IMG/VR virus record: IMGVR_UViG_3300049216_000614
Location: 1-44,637 of that record
DNA from: a virus
Reading direction: 5' to 3' (one strand)
DNA length: 44,637 nucleotides
How positions within the stretch are numbered: position 1 is the stretch's first letter; the number at the start of each line of letters is the position of its first letter. This document shows positions 2,964 through 35,839 of the stretch, piece after piece. Both the position numbers and the translations under genes were made by a program. The notes beneath the pieces were generated by a model, which was not told the DNA's origin, did not search any database, and was given only the letters and a program-made list of their open reading frames with translations.

Positions 2964-3527
2964 ATGAACCCAATACCTGCAGGCGCGCTCGATCACAATT
3001 TTGAATTTTTTACTCATGAAGGCCTGTACGCATTCTGTCTTAACCATGGTAAGGTTTCCGCGTTCGAGGAATGGCCGAATGAGCTGATCGATCATATCTA
3101 TGACGAAATGTGTTTGGGCTATCCTGATAAAGCTTTCTACCTCAATAAAATGGGGGTGTATGGCAAAAAGGAAATGGTTCGGCAGCTGATCATCTGCAAT
3201 TACGGCGCCTTTGATCATAACGCGGACATGGTGGACGGCAAGCTGCAGCAGCCTGAGTATTGGGATTGCCCGGTGCGCAGCAGCTGTAAATTCGACGGCA
3301 AGGTTTGTAATGGCTGCAAGACCGACACCGGCAAGCAGCTCACCGCGCACCAAGTACAAATTCTTAAATATGTGGTTGCCGGCCATGCCAATAAAGTGAT
3401 CGCCGGCATGATGGGGATATCTAAATATACGGTCGACAAGCATTGTACCCTGATCTGCAAAAAGACAGGACTTTTTACCAAGGTCGACCTTACCAGTTTC
3501 GCTTACCAAAAACGCATCGTACAATGA
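2964..3527 (+). CDS. LuxR-type HTH protein with a Cys-rich segment
   Basis: The C-terminal third of the 187-residue product (about 126-187) is a LuxR/GerE helix-turn-helix: LTAHQVQILKYVVAGHANKVIAGMMGISKYTVDKHCTLICKKTG. Ahead of it, residues about 101-118 carry CPxxxxCxxxxxxCxxC, which could bind a metal. There is no receiver domain, so it does not look like a standard two-component regulator. It starts two bases after the preceding stop and overlaps the next gene by ATGA, so it is part of the early operon. A role as activator of later phage genes is possible but not shown; the metal site and the absent sensor domain are what stand out. Confidence 0.7.
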   Translation: MNPIPAGALDHNFEFFTHEGLYAFCLNHGKVSAFEEWPNELIDHIYDEMCLGYPDKAFYLNKMGVYGKKEMVRQLIICNYGAFDHNADMVDGKLQQPEYWDCPVRSSCKFDGKVCNGCKTDTGKQLTAHQVQILKYVVAGHANKVIAGMMGISKYTVDKHCTLICKKTGLFTKVDLTSFAYQKRIVQ

Positions 3528-4152: not shown

Positions 4153-4604
4153 TTCTTTAAGGCGGAGGGTTAGTGTACCTCTCCATAACAACCGGTTACA
4201 GTTCCGGAAGTATTTGGGCATTCGTTCTTTATAAGAGTCAAAAAATTAACAGCAAAGCTGTTTTGAGGCTGGCCAGCCCTGTCGGTATTCGGATAGAACC
4301 AACTTGATCAACTGGCTATCGCAGAACGGAGATCGTCAATGGCCAAGGCGATAGGAGCCCCGTAAGAGAAAGTCCTCTTAGCTCCAAATGTGTGTGTAGT
4401 TCAATGGACAGAATGACTCGGGTATGCTTTGCTACACGAGCGGATAGAGGTTCGAATCCTTTCATACACTCAACCGGTTTCATAACCCGGTTTGCGGCTT
4501 CTTCCATGTGGCCGTAATTGTGATAAGGTTTAGGTTTAGGACTCTGAGACGCGATGTTGAGGAGTCCTTATTTAAAAGCTAATTATTAACTAAAACATAA
4601 AAAA
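4153..4604 (+). ncRNA. Non-coding stretch rich in hairpins, possible structured RNA
   Basis: This 452-bp gap in an otherwise gap-free operon holds no credible gene on either strand but many short perfect stems: GGAGGG/CTCTCC (4164-4184, one wobble), AACAGC/GCTGTT around AAA, the 12-bp palindrome GGCTGGCCAGCC, TATCGC/GCGATA (4318-4353), GGAGC/GCTCC enclosing TAAGAG/CTCTTA (4354-4385), then the tRNA-like domain, AACCGG/CCGGTT, CGGC/GCCG and AGGACTC/GAGTCCT (4536-4566). CAACCGGTT is repeated at 4189 and 4469; its palindromic core could join the two ends. The orientation is taken from the operon and the tRNA-like part. No family was recognised. Confidence 0.55.
4388..4468 (+). tRNA. tRNA-like element with an abnormal anticodon arm
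   Basis: The parts fit tRNA order. Acceptor ATGTGTG pairs with CATACAC (6 of 7 pairs, one G-U). TA at positions 8-9 is followed by D-arm GTTC/GAAT with GG in the loop. The T-arm AGAGG/CCTTT encloses TTCGAAT (one G-U). The variable region is 4 nt and CCA is not encoded. The anticodon arm is wrong for decoding: a four-pair stem CTCG/CGAG encloses a 16-nt loop (4419-4434) that can extend as GTA/TAC and GC/GC around TTT. So this is a tRNA mimic, a decayed tRNA, or one with a small insertion, rather than a normal isoacceptor. Confidence 0.6.
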
Positions 4605-5654: not shown

Positions 5655-6752
5655 ATGATATCAGAAAATTCGATTGATCAGATCCACGAGCTCGACCTGG
5701 TAGAGGTGGTAAAACGTTATGTGCCGGATCTGAAACAAAAAGGCGCCAAGTATACCGGGTGCTGTCCGTTCCATAACGAGAAAACGCCAAGTTTCAGCGT
5801 CGACCCGGCTAAGAGCATTTACAAATGTTTTGGCTGTGGCGAAGGCGGCAAGGATGGTATCAAATTTATGATGAGCCTGGAGAAGATCGGGTTTATCGAC
5901 GCGGTAAAACGGCTGGCTGCCGAGTTCAACATCATCCTCGAGGAAAAGGAAGATGATCCCGACCGGAAAGAGCAGATCATGAAGCGCGACGGTTACATCA
6001 AATTGAATATGGCCGTTAAGGAAAAATATCAAAAGGAGCTACTCACGCACATTCATAGCGGTGAGGAAATAAAAATAATACCGGTATTGGATGAACTGTT
6101 TAACCGTCGCAAATTAACGCGGGAAACCATAAGCTTGTTTGAAATAGGTTACGCGCCGATCGACTGGAAGACGATCACACCAAATATTATTGAGCGAGGC
6201 CTTTACGAAGCAGGTGTTGAGCTCGGCCTGATCGCCACAAAAAACGGTAATACTTACGATACTTACCGTGGCCGTATTATTTTCCCGATCCAAAACGAAC
6301 GCGGTGAAATTATCGGGTTCGGAGGACGCAAGCTGGAGGATGGCAAAGACGATAACCCTAAATACATCAACAGCGCCGACAGCGTACTTTACAAAAAAGA
6401 GCAGGTATTGTATGGCATTTACCAGGCCGCAGCTGCTATCAAGAAAATGAGATACGCCACCATCGTCGAGGGCTATTTTGATGTTACCGCCTTTCACCAG
6501 GCCGGGATGCAAAACGCCGTCGCGCCTTGCGGAACCGCGCTCACCGATGGCCATGCCAAGTTGCTTAAAAAGTATACCAATAATATTTTGCTGATGGGGG
6601 ATGGCGACGGCGCCGGCATGAAGGCCAATCTCAAAGCAGTCGACCTTTTACTCAAACATAATTTTAAAGTGGAGATATGCCCGTTGCCGCCCGGCCATGA
6701 CCCGGACAGCTTCGCCCGGGAGTTTGAATACGTGGAGGAAACGGCATCATGA
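5655..6752 (+). CDS. DNA primase N-terminal part (CHC2 zinc finger + catalytic core + Toprim)
   Basis: The 365-residue product has the DnaG order. The zinc finger is at about 36-61 (CCPFHNEKTPSF... YKCFGCGEGG). An RNA polymerase core follows, including 'RGRIIFPIQNERGEIIGFGGRKL'. The Toprim domain has the acidic residues E272 (VEGYFDV) and D316/D318 (GDGDGAG). It makes RNA primers for phage DNA replication. It stops at 'GHDPDSFAREFE...', exactly where DnaG proteins go on to their linker and C-terminal domains. That missing segment appears at the start of the gene at 7323, after two small intervening genes. The stop overlaps the next start by ATGA. Confidence 0.9.
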   Translation: MISENSIDQIHELDLVEVVKRYVPDLKQKGAKYTGCCPFHNEKTPSFSVDPAKSIYKCFGCGEGGKDGIKFMMSLEKIGFIDAVKRLAAEFNIILEEKEDDPDRKEQIMKRDGYIKLNMAVKEKYQKELLTHIHSGEEIKIIPVLDELFNRRKLTRETISLFEIGYAPIDWKTITPNIIERGLYEAGVELGLIATKNGNTYDTYRGRIIFPIQNERGEIIGFGGRKLEDGKDDNPKYINSADSVLYKKEQVLYGIYQAAAAIKKMRYATIVEGYFDVTAFHQAGMQNAVAPCGTALTDGHAKLLKKYTNNILLMGDGDGAGMKANLKAVDLLLKHNFKVEICPLPPGHDPDSFAREFEYVEETAS

Positions 6753-7000
6753 CAAACCAGGAATTTACGGATGGAAAAATATTTACCTACATGGGATCTT
6801 CCGAGCTATACGTCCGCTCCAGGAGTTACGATCGAAACCCATTATCATTTGATCTGCTTTTTAAAAATGGGGTAGGCCCTTGGATGACAAAGGCACATAT
6901 TATGAATGAAACCGAGGATTCATTTACGGTTGCGGATGCGCTGTTTGGGTATAAAGTAATGTGGTTCAAAGACTGTCAAGTGAAGGAGGTTAACCCATGA
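6749..7000 (+). CDS. Hypothetical small protein, paralogue of its neighbour
   Basis: The 83-residue product begins TNQEFTDGKIFTYMGSSELY and ends 'GYKVMWFKDCQVKEV'. The next gene has a matching frame: DLIDGKTFTYSGHFMRI near its start and 'KVCILYKECELVEE' at its end, so the two look like diverged tandem copies of one small beta-rich domain. Both sit between the two primase halves and keep the ATGA overlaps with their neighbours. No known family is recognised. Confidence 0.65.
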   Translation: MTNQEFTDGKIFTYMGSSELYVRSRSYDRNPLSFDLLFKNGVGPWMTKAHIMNETEDSFTVADALFGYKVMWFKDCQVKEVNP

Positions 7001-7326
7001 GCTTCGCCATGATCAATGCACGGAAAACACCGGCAGGTATTACCAGGCAGGACCTGATCGATGGGAAAACATTCACCTACAGCGGCCATTTTATGCGGAT
7101 AGCGCATAAGGAGGTAAAATATAACGCGGAGTTACGGAAGGACATCGAGATATTAAAAAAATGGCATTATCAGCGCGGCGAATACCTGGTGAGTGCCGAC
7201 AAGGATGACAAATGGCTCGTTACCGGTATGATGGAGGATAAGTTTTATGTTTTCCAGCCGTCATTCGGTAAGGTCTGCATCCTGTACAAAGAATGCGAAC
7301 TGGTTGAGGAGGAAGCGGTGATATGA
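6997..7326 (+). CDS. Hypothetical small protein, paralogue of its neighbour
   Basis: The 109-residue product shares the DGKxFTYxG opening and the C-terminal (K/L)xxCxx(F/Y)K(D/E)C pattern with the gene before it, with a longer, charged middle part. It overlaps both neighbours by ATGA, so translation is probably coupled from primase through this gene into the helicase gene. Its place between the two primase fragments suggests that it may act with them, but this is inference from position only. Confidence 0.65.
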   Translation: MSFAMINARKTPAGITRQDLIDGKTFTYSGHFMRIAHKEVKYNAELRKDIEILKKWHYQRGEYLVSADKDDKWLVTGMMEDKFYVFQPSFGKVCILYKECELVEEEAVI

Positions 7327-9830
7327 AGGGAACTTTACCTGAGTATATCGAACAAAACCGGGTTGATGCATCAACACTCCGGTCGGCGTTGCTGCAGGCC
7401 TGGATCAGTCGCCATAGGCTCGACGGCGTAAAATTTAAAGCGGCTTTTCTTAAAAAAGAAGCCGGCGACGATATCCATAAAAAAACCGAAGCGGTTGAGA
7501 TCATTTGCGAAACGCTAAACTCCATTTCCCTGCCGGTACTTCAGGATGAATATATCAAAATTGTCGCCGCAGAGCTCGACGTGAAGGTAGCTACCTTAAC
7601 CAGGAAGATCCGGAGCGACAGAGAGGAAAAGACCACGAAGGACATCAAGAAGATTGGCGAGGAGCTGAAGCGCGTTCGTTTTGTGGCCGAGCAGGTGGAA
7701 CGGAGTGAAATTGATATGACCACCGCTGAGGGCGATCTGCAGATCATCGCTGACGCGCTGGCCTCACTGGGCGAGAGCGCCCGGGATTATTTCCACCGGA
7801 TATGTTCGCAGCGCCCGGAGTATTTGCGCAGTCAGCTCGACCCGGTATTTACCGAAGCGCTGAAAAAGGGAAGGCTTAAAAACGCATCGAGGTTCTTTAA
7901 GCTGGCCGATATCTACGGACTGAAAATTAAGGTACCCAAGACTATCGCGGAAGCGAAGGAGCAAAAGACGGCCCAGGACATTATTGGCGACAAGGAATTG
8001 TCGGAAGAGTTCATGGAGTTCGGGATTTACGAGGAAGACGGCGTATACAAAAGCGTGGATCAGTGGAACAATGCCTACGTGGTTTCCAACTTTACCATGA
8101 AGATATTATGGCACGTGGAGACCAGCGACGATACTGCTTACCGGTTGGTGGCCATCAAAAATGTTTACGGGTACAAAGCGGTGATCAACATGAACACCGA
8201 CAATTTTGTATCCGTAGGATCCTTTAAAAAAGAAGTGGCCCGGAAAGGAAATTACCTGTGGAAGGGTAACGATATCGATCTCACCCGGCTCCAGGACAAA
8301 CTGCAGCGTGATGAAAAACCTACCGAGCTGGTGAAACATCTCGGCTGGCATAAAAGAGGGAAATTCTACGCTTTTGCCAATGGTATTTATGAAGTCGCCG
8401 GCGATGTGTTCCTGCCGGTGGATGAATATGGTATCGTGCAGCATGAAGCTGCCGGCGCCGATGGCGAAGTGAAGCTGCGCAATTACTTTATACCGGCAAT
8501 GAGTAAGATCTACGCCGATAAGGATGACAAGTTCTCCAACGATAAAAAGTTCATTTATAAGCCAAGTGAGAACACGTTTGAGAAATGGAGCAAGCAGTTT
8601 TGCAAAGTTTACGGTTACCAGGGCGAGCTTACACTGGTATTTTATATCATGTGCCTTTTTTCGGATATCATCTTCCAGGACCTTACCCGGCGTTTCCCGA
8701 TGCTGTTTTTATATGGCAAGCGCGGATCGGGAAAGGGCAGCCTGGCACAATCCATCATGCGGCTGTTTGGCCAGGGGCAAGACCAGATCATGCTCGGCGG
8801 CTCCAGTACTGCGGTCGGCTTTATGCGAAAGTTCGCCCAGTTTATCAACGCCATAGTTTGGCTGGATGAATACAAGAATAACCTGCCCAGCAAGATCATT
8901 GAATCTATTAAAAACATTTTCGACCGGATAGGTTACGAACGCGGAAAGAAGGATAACACCTTCGATACAGAAAGTACGCCGATCTACTCAGGATGTATCC
9001 TTTCCGGGCAGGAGATGCCCACCATTGAGCCGGCATTGTTTACCAGGGGAATACTGACGAGCCTGACCGAAACCAAACGTACTGAGGAGCAGCGGGTAAA
9101 TATGCGCGAGCTGGAGCGGATGGAAGAAGGCGGACTAAGCGGGATCACGGTATCGCTGATGAAATTCCGGCCGCTTTTTGCTGAAAAATTCCGCGAAACC
9201 TTTTATGCGGCGCAAAAAACGCTGATCCATTCGGTAAATAATAACGAGGTGGATGAGCGCATGTATGTGAACTACTCGGCCATGATCGCCGCGGCCGAGC
9301 TGATCGATCCGGTGATGCCGCTGCCGTTTAACCTCAACGGGTTTAAGGACCTGATGAAGCGCAATCTGCTCGAACAGTTCTTTGTGCTGAAAGGGAGCGA
9401 CGATGCCAGCAAGTTTTGGGACGTGGTGGAAGGCCTGTTTAACCGCGGTTATATCCTGGAGGATAAACACTTCATCCTTAAAAACGGGTACCTGTACATC
9501 CGCGTGGGCGATATCTACCAAACCTATGCCGAGGAGCTGATCAAACGGCGGGACCCGAATGTGCTGGATAAGGAAACGCTGTATAAATACCTGGAGAGCG
9601 ATACCAAAACATTTGTCAATAAGAAAAAGAAATGGTTCAGCGGCCAGGGCCAGCAGCTGTGGTGTCACGCTTTTAAATATTCCGAGCTCAATATCAACCT
9701 GATCAAAGGTAACGACCAGGAAGAGCTGCGAAGAAAGTACAAGGCCATGAACATGAATTTTGAGGATGAGCAGCAGGAGATGGATTTCCCTAAAAAAACT
9801 GACGAGGACGACGGGGACGTCGGATTTTAA
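7323..9830 (+). CDS. Primase-linker/AAA+ helicase fusion protein
   Basis: The product is 835 residues. Residues about 4-100 (LPEYIEQNRVDA... LKKEAGDDIHKKTEAVEIICETLNSI... LQDEYIKIVAAELDV) match the segment that normally follows Toprim in Bacteroidetes DnaG. The C-terminal half is an AAA+/SF3-like helicase: Walker A GKRGSGKGS (465-473), Walker B AIVWLDEYKN (D515, E516), then 'SGQEMPT..EPALFTRGI' as sensor and arginine-finger region. It probably unwinds phage DNA and couples to the primase encoded two genes upstream. The next gene starts inside its stop (TAATG). Confidence 0.8.
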   Translation: MKGTLPEYIEQNRVDASTLRSALLQAWISRHRLDGVKFKAAFLKKEAGDDIHKKTEAVEIICETLNSISLPVLQDEYIKIVAAELDVKVATLTRKIRSDREEKTTKDIKKIGEELKRVRFVAEQVERSEIDMTTAEGDLQIIADALASLGESARDYFHRICSQRPEYLRSQLDPVFTEALKKGRLKNASRFFKLADIYGLKIKVPKTIAEAKEQKTAQDIIGDKELSEEFMEFGIYEEDGVYKSVDQWNNAYVVSNFTMKILWHVETSDDTAYRLVAIKNVYGYKAVINMNTDNFVSVGSFKKEVARKGNYLWKGNDIDLTRLQDKLQRDEKPTELVKHLGWHKRGKFYAFANGIYEVAGDVFLPVDEYGIVQHEAAGADGEVKLRNYFIPAMSKIYADKDDKFSNDKKFIYKPSENTFEKWSKQFCKVYGYQGELTLVFYIMCLFSDIIFQDLTRRFPMLFLYGKRGSGKGSLAQSIMRLFGQGQDQIMLGGSSTAVGFMRKFAQFINAIVWLDEYKNNLPSKIIESIKNIFDRIGYERGKKDNTFDTESTPIYSGCILSGQEMPTIEPALFTRGILTSLTETKRTEEQRVNMRELERMEEGGLSGITVSLMKFRPLFAEKFRETFYAAQKTLIHSVNNNEVDERMYVNYSAMIAAAELIDPVMPLPFNLNGFKDLMKRNLLEQFFVLKGSDDASKFWDVVEGLFNRGYILEDKHFILKNGYLYIRVGDIYQTYAEELIKRRDPNVLDKETLYKYLESDTKTFVNKKKKWFSGQGQQLWCHAFKYSELNINLIKGNDQEELRRKYKAMNMNFEDEQQEMDFPKKTDEDDGDVGF

Positions 9831-10024
9831 TGAGACGGATCAGGAGCAGGCAGAGTCACCGGTATTACTGCCAAAATTGTATCAAACCGCCCATAAAGGT
9901 CGACGGCAAGAAAAAGACGCTGGACGTTCCTTATGCCAAGTTTGAAGATATCCCGATCGGGCAGCGCTACTATGTAGGGCAACTGATCAAAGCCGGTTAT
10001 AACGCGCAGTATAAATTATTTTAA
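9830..10024 (+). CDS. Hypothetical small basic protein with a CxxC motif
   Basis: The product is 64 residues from ATG 9830, overlapping the helicase stop (TAATG). It has a very basic N terminus (MRRIRSRQSHR), then YYCQNCIKPP, then 'DIPIGQRYYVGQLIKAGYNAQYKLF'. A single CxxC could be half of a metal site shared in a dimer. No family is recognised. An overlapping frame on the same strand (9760-9945) has no supporting features. Confidence 0.55.
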   Translation: MRRIRSRQSHRYYCQNCIKPPIKVDGKKKTLDVPYAKFEDIPIGQRYYVGQLIKAGYNAQYKLF

Positions 10025-10048
10025 AATCAAGTAAAGGAGGTATATAAA

Positions 10049-10216
10049 ATGACTGGAACACAATATGCTATCGAAAGTGCTATTGATGAGGCATTAGAAA
10101 ACGATGAGTTGTATGGACAACGACAGACCTTAATCGAAACGATCAGGTATGCACAAAAGTTACTGGAAGATGTGGAATCCGATATCGAAGCAATGGAAAA
10201 GGAAGATAACGGTTAA
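10049..10216 (+). CDS. Small acidic helical protein
   Basis: A 55-residue frame starts at ATG 10049, preceded by AGGAGG eight bases upstream, an unusually strong Shine-Dalgarno for this genome and the main reason to accept the gene. The product is acidic and helical (ALENDELYGQRQTLIETIRYAQKLLEDVESDIEAMEKED), like small coiled-coil proteins of phage early regions. It ends at TAA 10214-10216. Function unknown. Confidence 0.6.
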   Translation: MTGTQYAIESAIDEALENDELYGQRQTLIETIRYAQKLLEDVESDIEAMEKEDNG

Positions 10217-10544: not shown

Positions 10545-10829
10545 ATGAGTAAAAAAACCAACCAATTTGCAAAGCTGTACACATTTGATACCTGTCAGCT
10601 TATTGTTCGGACGTATTTTAATAACGATAAAGAAAAGAACGAGGTGATTTTTATCACGCAATCCAATGGATTGCAAATTAAGCAAACAGTTGGCTTTCCA
10701 GTCGACTTCCTTGCTGATAGTTACCTGGAAATTTTCGACCGGAGAAAAGCCCGGAAAATATTCAATAACCTGCAAGGCATTGAAAAAGGCGACGTTGATT
10801 TTTTAAATGATTTTGAGAAAGTTATATGA
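10545..10829 (+). CDS. Hypothetical early protein
   Basis: The product is 94 residues. ATG 10545 follows a good Shine-Dalgarno (GGAGG, six bases before). The first half looks like beta strands (AKLYTFDTCQLIVRTYFNNDKEKNEVIFITQ) and the second like helices with 'FDRRKARKIFNNLQGIEKGDVDFLNDFE'. It overlaps the following start by ATGA. I do not recognise a family. Confidence 0.6.
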   Translation: MSKKTNQFAKLYTFDTCQLIVRTYFNNDKEKNEVIFITQSNGLQIKQTVGFPVDFLADSYLEIFDRRKARKIFNNLQGIEKGDVDFLNDFEKVI

Positions 10830-11164
10830 AACGACACGAATATTACGGCTTTAAAAGCGAAGAGCAGCTGGAGGCGCATATCAAGAGATATTATCCAAAG
10901 CCATTTACCGATATGAGCGTAGCGCATAACGCGCACTTATGGCAGGATATCTATACCCTCGGTAAAGAATTATTCGCTCCGGATTTAATTGGCGACAAAT
11001 TTTACTTCCGAAATGGTTTGGCACTGGCTGCCGCTTTAACCACCCGGTTTGGCAAAGATTATGATATCGACGAGCTGGACAGGTTACTTGCAATCGGTTA
11101 CCGGTTTGAAAACGGGGCTTATGTGTTTGAGCGTAATGATTTTTATAAGGAGGTAACGGAATGA
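10826..11164 (+). CDS. Hypothetical early protein
   Basis: The product is 112 residues with ATGA overlaps at both ends. It is helical and mixed-charge, with 'FKSEEQLEAHIKRYYPKPF' and 'DIDELDRLLAIGYRFENGAYVFERNDFYKEV'. No catalytic or DNA-binding motif is seen. It directly precedes the DnaA-domain gene, so a part in replication is possible on position alone. Confidence 0.6.
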   Translation: MKRHEYYGFKSEEQLEAHIKRYYPKPFTDMSVAHNAHLWQDIYTLGKELFAPDLIGDKFYFRNGLALAAALTTRFGKDYDIDELDRLLAIGYRFENGAYVFERNDFYKEVTE

Positions 11165-11595
11165 ATCACCAGGAAGCATTGCAGAAATTTATCGACCTGC
11201 CTGAGCAGGAACGTACCTGGTTGCTGGAATTAGTGACGCTGCAGCCGAAGAAGACTTTACAACGTCCTCAAATAAAAAATCAAGATGTTAAGGCCAGAGC
11301 GGTATTGATCATTTTAGGTGTGTGCAGGGTATTGCAACTGAGCCCGCTTAGACTGAAGGCCAGGAATAACAAACGTGAATTTTCGAATGCCCGATTCATG
11401 GTTTACAATTTACTTCATCAAAACGGCTTTATTAAACTTCACATTGGAGAACTTTTTAGCCGTGATCATTCAACTGTATGCTATGGTATTAACCAGCATG
11501 AAGATTTGATATTAACCGACCGTGGATACAAAGCAAAATATGAATGTGTAGTTAATCATATCGCTTTAAACGTTCTAAATAAACTTGCATCATGA
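11161..11595 (+). CDS. DnaA domain IV-like DNA-binding protein
   Basis: The C-terminal part of the 144-residue product matches the double-strand DNA-binding domain of DnaA: 'KREFSNARFMVYNLLHQNGFIKLHIGELFSRDHSTVCYGINQHEDL', with the signature RDHSTV at 101-106 (GRDHTTV in DnaA), whose residues contact the TTATCCACA box. The AAA+ part of DnaA is absent. Such proteins can bind DnaA-box-like sites and either recruit or block the host initiator. About 1.9 kb downstream lie 12 TATCCA motifs, the core of a DnaA box, which makes that cluster the obvious target. Confidence 0.82.
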   Translation: MNHQEALQKFIDLPEQERTWLLELVTLQPKKTLQRPQIKNQDVKARAVLIILGVCRVLQLSPLRLKARNNKREFSNARFMVYNLLHQNGFIKLHIGELFSRDHSTVCYGINQHEDLILTDRGYKAKYECVVNHIALNVLNKLAS

Positions 11596-11816: not shown

Positions 11817-12010
11817 AGGCCTGGAAAAAATATGTGATCGCGGCGGTGCTGATCATCGGGCTGGCCATTGGCGGAGCCGAGTTGCTCCTGCAGTTCCTGG
11901 ACCTGGAAGGCCTCGCGATCCTGGTGGGGATCATGGCGGCGCTGTTTATCATTGTTTTGATCGTTTATGCAATAATGATCATTAGAGTTTTGAAGGAGGA
12001 TAAAAGATGA
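11813..12010 (+). CDS. Small protein with two TM segments
   Basis: The 65-residue product has two hydrophobic helices (about 8-29, VIAAVLIIGLAIGGAELLL, and 33-57, AILVGIMAALFIIVLIVYAI) with basic residues at both ends. A two-TM hairpin of this size is typical of class II holins, but the early location, far from the endolysin, argues against lysis. Another holin candidate lies at 35870. A membrane-anchored early factor is equally possible. It is embedded by ATGA overlaps before and after. Confidence 0.6.
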   Translation: MKAWKKYVIAAVLIIGLAIGGAELLLQFLDLEGLAILVGIMAALFIIVLIVYAIMIIRVLKEDKR

Positions 12011-12636
12011 TCGAACCATATCCATTATGCTGGCCGGACGGCTACGATCGGGCGGTTGAGCGCTATCAGTCTAATTTTAAAATGACAGCTAATAAAGCCC
12101 GAAAACATCTGCTGGATGAGGTATATCGCTTATCCGGTGATGACGCGCCGATCCTGAGCAGTAATGTACCGTTGCGTAAAAAAGACGGGCAAATGTTTGC
12201 TGATGTGGCGAATGATGAGTTGTACGACCCCGGCGTTGCCATTTACTTTAAATACAACAAACAGCAGGTAGTTTTTTGTTGCGACGAATGGCTGACGCCG
12301 GCAGAAAACTTGAGGGCACTCGGTTCAAGTATAGAAGCGTTGCGAAGTTTAGAGCGCTGGAAATGTTCAGGTATCATGAAACGGGCGCTTAAAGGATTTA
12401 AAGCGCTGCCACCGGCGCAACCAGGTAACCAGGTCCAAAAGACGCAGGTACCTGTAGTTGGCAGTGAATGGTGGGAAATTTTAGGCGTATCTAAAAATAC
12501 CGATCGGGCCGTATTAGACGCTGCATATAAGATACTGGTAAAAAAATATCATCCGGACAACCAGGATACCGGGAACCGCTCAAAATTTGAGCAGGTACAA
12601 AATGCTTACGAGCATGCAAAAAAGGCAATTCAATAA
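12007..12636 (+). CDS. J-domain (DnaJ-like) protein
   Basis: The 209-residue product ends in a J domain (about 156-209): EWWEILGVSKNTDRAVLDAAYKILVKKYHPDNQ, with the essential HPD at 182-184, and closes with 'FEQVQNAYEHAKKAI'. J proteins stimulate the ATPase of DnaK. The N-terminal 150 residues are unknown and would supply the client or target. Known phages use host chaperones to remodel replication complexes, so this one may bring DnaK to the phage initiator or helicase. It lacks the G/F region and zinc fingers of true DnaJ. Confidence 0.85.
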   Translation: MIEPYPLCWPDGYDRAVERYQSNFKMTANKARKHLLDEVYRLSGDDAPILSSNVPLRKKDGQMFADVANDELYDPGVAIYFKYNKQQVVFCCDEWLTPAENLRALGSSIEALRSLERWKCSGIMKRALKGFKALPPAQPGNQVQKTQVPVVGSEWWEILGVSKNTDRAVLDAAYKILVKKYHPDNQDTGNRSKFEQVQNAYEHAKKAIQ

Positions 12637-13381: not shown

Positions 13382-13403
13382 TAGTATAATCAAATACTCC
13401 GGA

Positions 13404-13450
13404 GCGCCCGTATGGCATAGTTTAAAACTGTGCCGTACGGGCGCTTTTTT
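13404..13450 (+). terminator. Strong terminator of the early operon
   Basis: A near-perfect 14-bp stem (GCGCCCGTATGGCA at 13404-13417 and TGCCGTACGGGCGC at 13431-13444, one mismatched or wobble pair) is followed by six T. It separates the early operon from the AT-rich repeat region. Confidence 0.92.
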
Positions 13451-13495: not shown

Positions 13496-13760
13496 TTGGA
13501 TAATTTGGATAAAATACCTGATAAATGAATTAATAGTTTAAAAATCAATATATTATACTATCCAACGCATCCTTAAAATAGCTTATATTTTATCCATGAC
13601 TATCCAACGTTATCCAAAGGAAGGTATATTTTTTTATACGCTGGATAATTGCGGTTAGTTTTTTAATAAAAAATAGGGATTTCGCTGTTTTATGGATAAT
13701 GTAAAGTGCTGATAAACAAAAGTTTTATCCAGTACTATCCATATTATCCAAACTATCCAT
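13496..13760. repeat. Cluster of 12 TATCCA motifs, candidate replication origin
   Basis: The hexamer TATCCA occurs at 13559, 13591, 13601, 13611, 13726, 13736, 13745 and 13754, and as TGGATA on the plus strand at 13498, 13507, 13643 and 13694: 12 copies in about 265 bp. Most extend to TTATCCA or TATCCAA. TTATCCA is the first seven bases of the DnaA box. Spacings of 9-10 bp occur among the last four. The region is strongly AT-rich, with no gene in 13382-13812, and follows an operon encoding a DnaA domain-IV protein, primase and helicase. This fits a phage origin; a multi-copy operator is the alternative. Confidence 0.65.
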
Positions 13761-13776
13761 GAAAAAAATCACGTTT

Positions 13777-13809
13777 TTTGCTTCCGACCTCGTTTTTTAA
13801 GTATTTTTG
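13777..13809 (+). promoter_or_regulatory. Bacteroidetes-type promoter, TTTG-N21-TAnnTTTG
   Basis: TTTG at 13777-13780 and TATTTTTG at 13802-13809 are separated by 21 bases and match the -33/-7 consensus of Bacteroidetes vegetative promoters. The ATG of the next gene lies only three bases after the -7 element, so the transcript would be leaderless or nearly so. This may be the middle promoter. Confidence 0.55.
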
Positions 13810-14421: not shown

Positions 14422-14973
14422 TTGGCAAACTATTACCTCATCCGGTTATCGGTGCATCCATATATCCGGAAATACTTATGCAGTCATTACAGCGAACCGT
14501 TGTTTGTGTCTAAACGCGGCCATATTCCCTCATTCATCAATAACGTGCTGGAGCCTATGCCTAAGCTGAGCCCGGAAGAGATCAAAAGCGTCGTTAAAAT
14601 AAATTATGGCGCATATTTTGGTTTCGCGGTTACGGCCAGCAGCGCGAGGTCGCAAACCTATTTGAATTCGGACAGCGTTAAAAAGATCAACCAGGTGATA
14701 TCGGATATCATCCATGAAGAAATGTACCGGATGATCACCAGGCAGGCGGGTAAATTCGTCCAGGTCGATCAAACGATCCGCGAATTTACGGCGATGTACG
14801 ATTTTACCGAAGATGAGCTTCCGTTCGAAAATTTAAAGCGCTGGTATTACCGGGAGCGCAAGGAGCGGGAGCTGCGCCGCCAAAAGCTGGAGGCATCCGG
14901 ACCTCAATTTATCCTGACGCTGACCGAGGAGCGCAAATCTGACGAATGCATCGTCAGGAAAATGGCTTCATAA
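14422..14973 (+). CDS. Hypothetical protein, TTG start
   Basis: The product is 183 residues. The only start that keeps the conserved-looking N terminus (ANYYLIRLSVHPYIRKYLCSHY) is TTG 14422; the next in-frame Met would remove about 45 residues. The middle is helical ('SDSVKKINQVISDIIHEEMYRMITRQ') and the C-terminal part has a very basic helix (RRWYYRERKERELRRQKLEA), suggesting nucleic-acid contact. It lies between two promoters, just before the first late promoter, so it is a candidate for the unknown late-gene activator; this is inference from place and charge only. Confidence 0.55.
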   Translation: MANYYLIRLSVHPYIRKYLCSHYSEPLFVSKRGHIPSFINNVLEPMPKLSPEEIKSVVKINYGAYFGFAVTASSARSQTYLNSDSVKKINQVISDIIHEEMYRMITRQAGKFVQVDQTIREFTAMYDFTEDELPFENLKRWYYRERKERELRRQKLEASGPQFILTLTEERKSDECIVRKMAS

Positions 14974-21977: not shown

Positions 21978-22649
21978 ATGCAGGAAATTAAGGCATGGCT
22001 AAAAGGCGGCGACTATGCTGCCGGCATTATTTTATACAGCAAATATGGCAATAACAGCTTTTTGAAAAAGCAATTTGCCAAACAGCAAAATAAATACCTC
22101 GAGCAAAAATTACGCGAGGAGCTGGTGAAGATCAGTATCCATCTTAAACTCGCTGAAATAACGGAAACAGGTTTTGATGTTATCGACAAATCGCCGGCTG
22201 CTTCAAAAATTTTAATTACCCCGAATTCAGGGGAATTAAAACAATCGCCGCTCCCTGATAAATCCGAATTGCAAAAACAATACCTGCAGCTGGTAAAGAA
22301 ACGGCAGCGCCTGTATACTGAGCTTAATGCTTATATGGAGGAAAAGCATCATTTGCCTGAAGGTGAAAAATTAAGGCTTTGTTGTGTGGCTATTTTGGCT
22401 CATCACCGGCAGATCACCGAAACCTACGCGCTGACCGACCATTACGAGGTTCATCAAAAATTCCCGATGGAAGAGAAAAAACCTGATATCGATCCGGAAG
22501 TGGAGATTGACCTTTTGCGCTCGGCCATCAGCAAAGCGAATAAGCGTCTGTTAAACGCAAATTGCCGTAACCGTGAAAAAACGCAAAAAGGTTTGGATGC
22601 AAAAAAATGCCGTCTGAACGAATTACTGGCTAAACGTGATCAGCAATGA
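21978..22649 (+). CDS. Hypothetical helical protein ahead of terminase
   Basis: The product is 223 residues from ATG 21978; a TTG six bases earlier overlaps the -7 element. It starts with a compact segment (MQEIKAWLKGGDYAAGIILYSKYGNN) that looks like a small alpha domain. Long charged helices follow ('ELQKQYLQLVKKRQRLYTELNAYMEEK' and 'EIDLLRSAISKANKRLLNANCRNREKTQKGLDAKKCRLNELLAKRD'). It overlaps the small-terminase candidate by ATGA, so it may help DNA packaging. No family is recognised. Confidence 0.65.
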   Translation: MQEIKAWLKGGDYAAGIILYSKYGNNSFLKKQFAKQQNKYLEQKLREELVKISIHLKLAEITETGFDVIDKSPAASKILITPNSGELKQSPLPDKSELQKQYLQLVKKRQRLYTELNAYMEEKHHLPEGEKLRLCCVAILAHHRQITETYALTDHYEVHQKFPMEEKKPDIDPEVEIDLLRSAISKANKRLLNANCRNREKTQKGLDAKKCRLNELLAKRDQQ

Positions 22650-23290
22650 GCCGGCAAATGATCAGGTCCAGCGATGTAAAGGGTAATTCTTCCTATGATA
22701 TTATCCTGCGCGCGTTTTTAGATCATAAAATCCATGAATTGCCTGTTCAACTATCGGGAATGCTGGAAAGATGGCAAATGGTGGACAAGCTGATCAGGAA
22801 AGGCGAGATCACGAAATTGATCAATAGCGATGGTGATCTTGAAAGTAAACTTAAACGTTTTTCATTTACCGACCTGGTTGATTACCTGAAGCAAAATTAC
22901 AGCGTATCGACCAGGACAGCTTATGAAGATATCCGCAATGCCAAAAGGTTCTTTTTAAGTTGTGAAGGCAGGGAAGATGTTGAATACGCGCGTGGCGTAG
23001 CGATTGAACATGGCGAAATGATGATGTTCGCCGCTTTGGACGCCGGTGATTTTGACGCGGCCAGTAAGTTTTACAAAGAGCTCAATATCATTAAACACCT
23101 GCACGAGCAGCGTGACGATATTCCTGATTACGCTGATTTTATCCCGCCAACATTTGTTTTGGTTGCCGATGCTACAGAATTAGGTTTTGAAAAGATCGAA
23201 AATCCGGATGAAGTTGTTAAGCGCATCCTGAACGAAAAACGAATAAACTTCCTGGATAAAGAAGCCAGTGACGCGGAGGAAGTTGACTAA
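22646..23290 (+). CDS. Terminase small subunit candidate
   Basis: The 214-residue product has a helix-turn-helix-like part at about 73-105 ('FTDLVDYLKQNYSVSTRTAYEDIRNAKRFF'), which fits a DNA-recognition role. A long helical region and an acidic tail ending EEVD follow. It lies directly before the large terminase and shares a TAATG overlap with it. Small terminase subunits bind the packaging site and hand DNA to the motor. The sequence is divergent, so the call depends on HTH plus position. Confidence 0.7.
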   Translation: MSRQMIRSSDVKGNSSYDIILRAFLDHKIHELPVQLSGMLERWQMVDKLIRKGEITKLINSDGDLESKLKRFSFTDLVDYLKQNYSVSTRTAYEDIRNAKRFFLSCEGREDVEYARGVAIEHGEMMMFAALDAGDFDAASKFYKELNIIKHLHEQRDDIPDYADFIPPTFVLVADATELGFEKIENPDEVVKRILNEKRINFLDKEASDAEEVD

Positions 23291-33269: not shown

Positions 33270-35839
33270 AAAAACTACTGATCTTATTTATTCTTATTTT
33301 TTGCAGTATTATCTCTTTCGCGCAAAGCGATCCTGCCCCTTCAGGCGGTAATTTCGGCTCATTATCAGGCTATGGCCGGGTTGCCAGTGGCGACACTATT
33401 AAGAGCATTTACATTACCGGTTACGGATGGCTTGATCTTGCCGGATTAAGACATACTGTGCCTTACAGCAACTGGTCGCAAAACGTAAACGGCACCGGGC
33501 ACACTGAATCCCTTAGCTACCTGGTTATCGGTGGAACTACATCAGCCAATATCAATTTGCAGTCGATCAGCGGAACGCCGGGTGTGCCTTTAAACGGTAT
33601 TAATCTTTACGATAAAGGCGGATTTAGCTTTATTGGGAGCGACAGTTTAATAAGGACGTTTGCTGATCACAATACCGGTAACAGGCAGTATTTCTGGCCG
33701 GACGTTAGCGATACCGTAGCGATGCGGAGTTGGGTGCGTGCGCTTTTAAGCGGTTATGTAACCACCACCGGAGGCGCGCTTACAGGTCCGCTCAACATGG
33801 GTTCGTACCCTCTAAATTTCAATGCCGGTGCTATATCGACAGGTTCTGCAAGTTGGATTTTTCATGCATCGTTACGTGACGGCATATTTTTCACAGATGA
33901 TATGGGAAATAACATCATGACGCTTGACGGTAACGTTTCAGGCGCGGATCAACCGGGCGTAGCTCTTTTTCAGCCGTTGGAACTGACTAATACTCCCGTT
34001 GTGCCGCAACCTGCTTTTCATTTTTTAGTGAGGGATGATGCGACCTCTGCCCATGGCACCGTCGCTCAAATATCGCGGGATAGTACGATCGCTCTTTTGA
34101 AAATCGATAGCATAGCGATAGCCAAAGCGGATAGTATCCAAGCGTTAACCACCCTCCAAACGGTGACCGGCAACGGATCAATAACCACCAAACCGGTAAT
34201 AGCGACTGATCACGTAGCGGCTGGCGACAGCACCAGGGCTCCCGTTTTTATCGCTGATGGCAGCTCGATATCACTGGCGTTGGGCCGTGGATTGGTTGAA
34301 ACCTACGCGCAGGCCTTTCCTAACATTGTTGGCGGTAATTTTGGAATGGAAGTTTATAATATGTCGGTATCAGGCCGGTATTTTCAGAAAAACAGCACCG
34401 GTGACGGATCCATAGTCGACCAGGAGGCATTAGTGCCAAATTATACACCCGGTAGTATACTTTTAGCCGAAAGTGTTAACGACCCGGTGCAGGACAGTAC
34501 ATTGCGCAACGCTTCCACCTTTCAGAGCCAGGGCATCGCGTTTGTCAATTACCTGGTAACTACAAAAGGCTGGCCTGCCAGTCATATCATCATATCGCCG
34601 ACCTTGGGTTATACCAATTACACCGGCAACGCTAACCATGGTTACATTCCTTACCGGATCAATCAATACACCGCAGCTGCTAATGCTATCGCCAGCGCGA
34701 CCGGATGTTTGGCATACGTAGGCTATACTGCCGGCAAGCCGACCGCCTCCACAGACATGGTTTCGGACAGCTTGCACTTTAATGTATCGGGCAACGCGAG
34801 GAACGCAGCCAACCTTACTGCCTTTTTAACGGGTTATTTTTCGGTGAATACTATCAATCCCAAGTCAAATGTCTATGGAAATCAAACGGTTTTGGGAAAT
34901 CAAAAGGTTTATGGCACGGGAACTTTTGGAACCATTAATGCGATCAATGGTAATACTTTCGGCCCATCTACATTTAACGGCCCGATCATGGCTACCTACA
35001 GGCCCGGCGTTGCGGATAATTATAACATTATTTTAGGCAGTACTTCATCCTCGTCCGCTGTGACTTCCGGGACAACAAAAAGCGGAGATATCGAGGCTTA
35101 CGATTATACCAATAACCTATATGGGCTGATGGATTATGTTAGCCAATCTACCACAAATACCTTAACAATTGGCCAGGGTAATGGTACCTATTCTCCCACA
35201 TCACTTAGGTTTTATGTGGGTTCGGCTGTGCAAACGAACGGAGCTGACATGTTCCATCTTTTCGCTTCAGGCGGTAAGGCTATGGGATTATCAAGTGTAA
35301 GCGGTAGTTTAACCGATCCGGGTGCAGGTAATTTTTCCATACAGGATAATGCGTATCCTACCTCTGATAATTTTTACACTTTGGGAGCCAGCGGTAAGCG
35401 CTGGTCTACCGTATACGGGGTGAATTATCAAATGGGAGGGACCGGTGTGCCTTTCTCACCAGGCTCGACATCTAATATTACTTTCGCATCTTTTAACGGG
35501 ATAGCAAAATTTAACGGATCAAGCGCTCCTACACAGGCAGTTTCTAACACCGATTTTCTGCCGCCGACGTCCCCGGTGATGAGCGCACCTACTATAAATG
35601 GTAAGATCACCGTTTCTACTTCAGCCAATAACGCTGCAGCGTTTGCAACACTGGCGGCCGGTACAGTGACAGTTTCCAATACTTCAGTCACAGCAAACAG
35701 CATTATTCTCATCCAGCATAAGACAAGCGGCGGTACAGTTGGAACCTATTCTTACTCAGTTACCCCGGGCACTTCATTTACGATCACCTCATCCAGCTCG
35801 ACAGATACTTCGGTGGTTGGCTATGTAATTATCAATTAA
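33266..35839 (+). CDS. Tail fiber/tailspike with SGNH esterase domain and signal peptide-like N terminus
   Basis: The product is 857 residues. The N terminus (MKKLLILFILIFCSIISFAQS) is a standard Bacteroidetes Sec signal, odd for a virion protein. Repeated beta structure with 'TTGGALTGPLNMGSYPLNFNA' (fiber motif) follows. Residues about 320-515 form a SGNH/GDSL hydrolase: 'VFIADGSSIS' as block I (catalytic Ser), 'LAESVND' as block III and 'SDSLHFNVSGN' as block V (Asp-x-x-His). Such domains remove acetyl groups from polysaccharides. The last 300 residues are Ser/Thr/Asn-rich shaft. Likely role: binding and deacetylating host capsule or O-antigen. Confidence 0.78.
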   Translation: MKKLLILFILIFCSIISFAQSDPAPSGGNFGSLSGYGRVASGDTIKSIYITGYGWLDLAGLRHTVPYSNWSQNVNGTGHTESLSYLVIGGTTSANINLQSISGTPGVPLNGINLYDKGGFSFIGSDSLIRTFADHNTGNRQYFWPDVSDTVAMRSWVRALLSGYVTTTGGALTGPLNMGSYPLNFNAGAISTGSASWIFHASLRDGIFFTDDMGNNIMTLDGNVSGADQPGVALFQPLELTNTPVVPQPAFHFLVRDDATSAHGTVAQISRDSTIALLKIDSIAIAKADSIQALTTLQTVTGNGSITTKPVIATDHVAAGDSTRAPVFIADGSSISLALGRGLVETYAQAFPNIVGGNFGMEVYNMSVSGRYFQKNSTGDGSIVDQEALVPNYTPGSILLAESVNDPVQDSTLRNASTFQSQGIAFVNYLVTTKGWPASHIIISPTLGYTNYTGNANHGYIPYRINQYTAAANAIASATGCLAYVGYTAGKPTASTDMVSDSLHFNVSGNARNAANLTAFLTGYFSVNTINPKSNVYGNQTVLGNQKVYGTGTFGTINAINGNTFGPSTFNGPIMATYRPGVADNYNIILGSTSSSSAVTSGTTKSGDIEAYDYTNNLYGLMDYVSQSTTNTLTIGQGNGTYSPTSLRFYVGSAVQTNGADMFHLFASGGKAMGLSSVSGSLTDPGAGNFSIQDNAYPTSDNFYTLGASGKRWSTVYGVNYQMGGTGVPFSPGSTSNITFASFNGIAKFNGSSAPTQAVSNTDFLPPTSPVMSAPTINGKITVSTSANNAAAFATLAAGTVTVSNTSVTANSIILIQHKTSGGTVGTYSYSVTPGTSFTITSSSSTDTSVVGYVIIN

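Follow-up and report, generated by a model that had tools for sequence, protein, structure and literature searches.

The closest described parallels to the locus analysed here are replicons of mobile elements in which the origin, made of short repeats, is read by the initiator helicase itself. SaPIbov1 Rep and SCCmec Cch both contain DUF927; SaPI Rep reads its short iterons with its C-terminal domain, and in the case of Cch2 the isolated C-terminal domain binds the iterons (PMC7581432, on which our comparison with SaPI rests). It has been predicted that proteins with DUF927 and DUF3987 serve mobile elements as replicative helicases, and that related replicases read the origin with their winged helix (PMC5862659). 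In the SaPI layout the origin comes immediately after the helicase gene, an arrangement that is not required by the mechanism. Phage P4 alpha is likewise an initiator helicase, with a C-terminal origin-binding domain and an origin that comprises two clusters of short repeats, ori and crr. In phage lambda, the O protein is a phage-encoded initiator that reads repeats within the phage origin.

Here, we describe a computational analysis of a hexamer array in a 44,637-nucleotide virus record, IMGVR_UViG_3300049216_000614 (the window, by which we mean the whole stretch). As in the replicons of SaPIbov1 Rep and SCCmec Cch, the phage encodes a DUF927 helicase with a matching predicted fold and C-terminal winged helix, and it carries a putative short-repeat origin (12 hexamers in two modules with AT-rich gaps) for which the helicase is likewise proposed as the reader. 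It differs in that the replicon is a temperate phage of Bacteroidota, with a two-module array of 9-10 bp pitch at the early/late junction. The array lies 3.7 kb downstream of the helicase gene rather than directly downstream of it, although the direct arrangement occurs in relative L092 and in phages 1H and laban6-1. Judged from sequence comparison and the predicted fold, the array appears to work like the SaPIbov1 Rep/Cch replicon, and we file it as a variant rather than a plain member because it is not directly downstream of the helicase gene. The likeness to P4, an initiator helicase with two repeat clusters, draws on general knowledge of that phage; P4 alpha is a primase-SF3 helicase fusion, whereas in the window a DnaG-type primase is encoded apart from the helicase, whose core is DUF927/MCM-like, and the letters and spacing of the boxes differ. 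The iterons of lambda are longer, and O, the protein that binds them, is not a helicase, whereas the reader proposed for the window is the helicase itself. With bacterial oriC the array shares a box starting TTATCCA and a candidate AT-rich unwinding region, but it has no 9-mer DnaA boxes, the phage has no full DnaA, and its DnaA-C protein is not conserved with the array.

Results

A two-module hexamer array at the early/late junction of a provirus

Because it has a tyrosine integrase at its right end and, at its left end, a host gene tail whose closest match is Mucilaginibacter, the window is an integrated provirus of a Mucilaginibacter-like host. The phage is a temperate phage of Bacteroidota. 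The early region codes for a LuxR-type regulator, a MazG-like protein, a DnaG-type primase (5655-6752, plus strand; Pfam and PHROG matches), a DUF927-type AAA+ replicative helicase of the same module (7323-9830, plus strand; PF06048, phrog_1139), a DnaA domain-IV-only protein and a DnaJ-domain protein. The last of these (12007-12636; phrog_9210) has its DnaJ domain at the C-terminus and is encoded close to the DnaA domain-IV gene. The early operon is closed by a strong intrinsic terminator of 20 pairs (13401-13447, plus strand) just upstream of the array, and a candidate late promoter of Bacteroidota type (TTTG-N21-TATTTTTG, 13777-13809, plus strand) was read from the sequence. Before the early operon, at 4400-4490, there is a tRNA-like stretch (GTTCAATGGACAGAATGACTC...GGTTCGAATCC); ARAGORN called no tRNA in the window, this stretch included. 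GC skew drops near 14 kb from about +0.1 to about 0; as no extreme of the cumulative curve coincides with this drop, the signal was left unused.

Between the terminator and the late region, 12 exact copies of TATCCA/TGGATA occupy positions 13497-13759, in DNA of 70% A+T, eight on the plus strand and four on the minus strand, as the sequence-only reading had described. They form two modules. Module 1 (13497-13616) has minus-strand boxes starting at 13497 and 13506 and plus-strand boxes starting at 13559, 13591, 13601 and 13611; module 2 (13642-13759) has minus-strand boxes at 13642 and 13693 and plus-strand boxes at 13726, 13736, 13745 and 13754. The start-to-start steps are 9, 53, 32, 10, 10, 31, 51, 33, 10, 9 and 9, so that the last four boxes do lie 9-10 bp apart, as that reading had also noted. 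In module 1, the DNA that separates the outward-pointing boxes (13512-13558) is 85% A+T, with flanks of 55%, and is a candidate unwinding element; a stretch of module 2 (13648-13692; 73% A+T) may have the same role.

In 5000 local dinucleotide shuffles the count of TATCCA/TGGATA never exceeded 3, compared with the 12 seen, and no other hexamer is equally dense anywhere in the window. The window in its entirety has 50 copies where 22 are expected, and no shuffle attains the observed number. The local array score is 10^-16.9, the best of 30 codon-shuffled loci reaching about 10^-6.3. Since host-chromosome loci also score strongly (9 of 61 in the same scan reached 10^-8), the case made here rests on recurrence, position and covariation, and not on any single score.

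Relatives keep the geometry of the array and change its letters

First searches of viral contigs using single proteins found no relatives. A search for the helicase in 399 genomes of the host family identified nine that carry it, and most of the phages in these genomes have arrays at or near the same junction, composed of other letters. A conserved protein encoded at the start of the late region (14422-14973, plus strand) was then used, as an alignment, as the marker for relatives, yielding 18 IMG/VR viruses and further genomes, mostly with arrays. The resulting comparison set comprises over 30 related phages. Nearly all have a corresponding array, which in most cases sits, as in the window, at the early/late junction and is often beside the replicase gene, the boxes being of the types TATCCA, TGTCCA, TGTCTA, TGTCCCA, GTTCCA, GCTCCA, CCTACA, ATTACA, GTTACA, GGTTAA, TTAAC types, CGTTCC and CGTTTC.

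The commonest layout consists of three minus boxes at 9 bp pitch, 84-110 bp of AT-rich DNA, and three plus boxes at 10 bp. The steps of module 1 (-9 -53 +32 +10 +10 +, each sign giving the strand of a box and each number the step to the next) recur exactly in relative L096 and with little change in L180, and a counterpart of module 2 (-10 -31 -42 +9 +9 +) is found in L096 and L180, which have TATCCA, and in L094, which has TGTCCA. Among same-strand neighbours, 68 of 128 are 9 or 10 bp apart, and the central gaps of the TATCCA/TGTCCA group are mostly 69-86% A+T. Such fixed spacing with free letters is the pattern that would be expected of a binding-site array for one protein.

The array directly follows the replicase gene in L092 (TGTCCCA), in L172, L176 and L177 (CGTTCC), and in the cultured phages 1H and laban6-1 (GTTGAG). 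Six named phages with distant DUF927 replicases (23-31% identity) all have an array: Microcystis phage Mea-Yong924-1 (TGTCCG, nine copies), Cellulophaga phage Ingeline_1 (GTTCCA, five copies), two Porphyromonas phages (CCTACA, 12 and 13 copies), and Flavobacterium phages 1H and laban6-1 (GTTGAG, five and eight copies, respectively).

Several arrays show further structure. In TGTCCA phages, a second box module lies just after the homologue of the 14422-14973 protein, about 1 kb from the first (in oriented coordinates, L095 14903-15052, L097 12040-12168, L098 14514-14657 and L181 about 9879-10017). In L100, a GTTCCA array (10782-11390, oriented) is seemingly tandem-duplicated, the first copy being partly diverged (GCTCCA/ATTCCA). 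L175 (G185 C1) retains an intact six-box TGTCCA array together with a fragment of the 14422-14973 homologue at 10020-10160 (oriented), and no matching replicase is present in that genome; this array is an orphan, probably the relic of a prophage.

Box letters follow the replicase

Gene maps and Pfam matches divide the replicases of the relatives into DUF927, DUF5906 and DUF3987 classes, each with its own group of boxes. The DUF927 replicase cluster is present in 16 of 16 DUF927-type loci and 0 of 12 others, as the definition of the class dictates, and no other gene cluster is general to these loci and at the same time confined to them. A Mantel test covering 24 phages gives a correlation of r 0.749 between the similarity of boxes and that of replicases, a value reached in 0 of 2000 permutations, a figure that overstates the strength of the association since the relatives are not independent of one another. 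The correlation is 0.744 when the LuxR-type regulator is controlled for.

A natural swap, to which the dependence among relatives does not apply, points the same way. L164 and L172 have LuxR-type regulators that are 96% identical and 14422-14973 homologues that are 78% identical; their replicases are unrelated (DUF5906-type and DUF3987, respectively), and so are their boxes, GGTTAA in L164 and CGTTCC in L172. When each genome was checked for the other's array, L164 had no CGTTCC array and L172 no GGTTAA array.

Within the DUF927 class, the helicase is accompanied by a separate DnaG-type primase in the window (5655-9830) and is fused to a BT4734-like primase domain in L094-L098, an apparent exchange of primases around a conserved helicase. 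TATCCA is common to the window, with its DnaG-type primase, and L096, whose helicase is fused to an N-terminal domain that aligns with the BT4734-like primase domain of L094. Thus, the type of primase does not set the letters. The covariation as a whole points to the replication module, and within it the helicase itself is the putative box reader.

The helicase is predicted to resemble Cch and Rep

The replicase of the window scores 23.8 bits against PF06048 (DUF927), passing the cut-off of 22.6. When the PDB was searched by sequence with an alignment of the replicase, no solved structure was matched. The AF2 model, of moderate confidence (pLDDT 74.8, pTM 0.50), combines an AAA+ core with a winged helix at the C-terminus. 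The solved structures closest to it in fold are SCCmec Cch (5dgk), aligned over 451 aa with Z 22.2, and SaPIbov1 Rep (8tch), aligned over 436 aa with Z 19.1. These two matches span model residues 229-798, extend at the C-terminal end to residue 795-798, and include the winged helix; the next fold group, MCM (Z 16), covers mostly the core. The winged-helix region (residues 694-785; 9402-9677, plus strand), in which the model places helices at 728-741 and 750-759 and strands at 764-772 and 777-785, is the proposed box-binding domain. By analogy with SaPI Rep (PMC7581432), it may be this region that reads the boxes.

A single residue of the winged helix was considered as the determinant of specificity, being Asn in the window and L096 and mostly Gly, Ala or Glu in TGTCCA phages; the pattern is broken by L178 and L180, and the candidate was rejected. 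The winged helices of L178, which has mixed TATCCA/TGTCCA boxes, and L132, which has TGTCCA, are nearly identical.

Other candidate readers

The sequence-only reading had proposed an origin read by the DnaA domain-IV-only protein (11161-11595, plus strand). Its description of this protein holds: the product matches Bac_DnaA_C (PF08299; E 5e-8, over the curated cut-off), contains RDHSTV and lacks the ATPase. TTATCCA is indeed the first seven letters of the DnaA box, and in whole-record searches the PF08299-bearing genomes (the window, L097, G431, G439, G440 and G441) all have TATCCA or TGTCCA boxes. However, none of the 12 sites extends to the DnaA 9-mer; the boxes are followed by AAC, AAA, ATG, AGC and so on, at none by TTATCCACA, there is no 9-mer DnaA box (TTATNCACA) within 13497-13759, and the window contains a single degenerate match to TTWTNCACA, at 33887. 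PF08299 is absent from many relatives that share the boxes and the geometry (L094, L095, L096, L098, L128, L130, L132, L138 and L124), and those that do have it show drift in its DHST signature (RDHTT, RERTT, RDRTT, RNHST) with the box still TGTCCA. The position of the gene also varies among relatives, lying upstream of the helicase in L180. On distribution, motif drift and the missing 9-mers we reject this protein as the reader; an origin read by it seems very unlikely, and we regard the protein as at most an accessory to the origin. A DnaA-like domain beside DnaA-like letters can therefore mislead. The same reading had offered an operator for a repressor as its alternative. The array sits just upstream of the candidate late promoter, NarL-family proteins bind heptamer arrays in mixed orientation, and a LuxR/GerE-type regulator (2964-3527, plus strand) is found in nearly all relatives, so that the array could serve the late promoter as an operator or an upstream activating region, with this LuxR/NarL-type protein binding to it. 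The regulator is, however, conserved in the group whatever the box type: it is 96% identical in L164 and L172, in which the boxes differ, and its partial correlation with the box is nil once the replicase is controlled for (0.03, p 0.31). Moreover, L092, L172, L176, L177, 1H and laban6-1 have their arrays within the early region, behind the replicase gene. On the swap and the partial Mantel test we reject the regulator as the reader, and because it does not covary with the box we disfavour the operator reading, which now seems highly improbable.

We consider it equally improbable that the array is a centromere-like or packaging site, or an autoregulatory site of the adjacent 14422-14973 protein. 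A homologue of that protein adjoins the array in most relatives, and its AF2 model begins with a strand-helix-helix N-terminus that is faintly ribbon-helix-helix-like. The model has no fold match in the PDB below E 0.001, the protein itself has no Pfam, PHROG or PDB match, and its partial correlation with the box is 0.016 with the replicase controlled for; on this partial Mantel result and the L164/L172 swap we reject it as the reader. In addition, array and homologue lie apart in L164, L172, L092 and others, and a separate HTH-like protein encoded just before TerL (22646-23290) is a candidate TerS. One point against the helicase as the reader is the 3.7 kb that separates its gene from the array in the window.

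Discussion

The array is quite probably a phage replication origin, its hexamers being iterons read by the DUF927 initiator helicase, probably via the C-terminal winged helix; this view draws on the comparison of relatives and on the modelled fold. The proposal of an iteron-like phage origin thus finds support in the kept geometry, the frequent position beside the replicase gene, and the change of letters with replicase class. We infer direct binding, melting and origin activity. In the proposed mechanism, a phage helicase resembling SCCmec Cch and SaPIbov1 Rep would bind the iterons, probably through its winged helix. The sets of boxes 9-10 bp apart, pointing outward around AT-rich DNA, would bring the helicase subunits into line, let the AT-rich stretch melt and load helicase rings for both forks. 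The phage primase (5655-6752) would then prime. A more elaborate version, which we think unlikely, is that the array may be a timing switch as well as an origin: by being loaded or firing at the early/late junction, the helicase would tie replication to transcription of the late region, whose promoter lies roughly 20-100 bp downstream, and the DnaA domain-IV protein of some phages would modulate this process by steering or excluding host DnaA.

In the literature examined we found no described origin for temperate phages of Bacteroidota. As an origin read by its DUF927 helicase, the array would provide one that is readable and family-wide, and the comparison indicates that phages similar in other respects swap whole modules of replicase and array. 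Arrays of this kind also occur in Cellulophaga phage Ingeline and Flavobacterium phage laban6-1, both cultured, which makes the proposal testable. With their fixed geometry, drifting letters and module swaps, these phages would offer naturally occurring data on the recognition code that MCM-like (DUF927) initiator helicases use.
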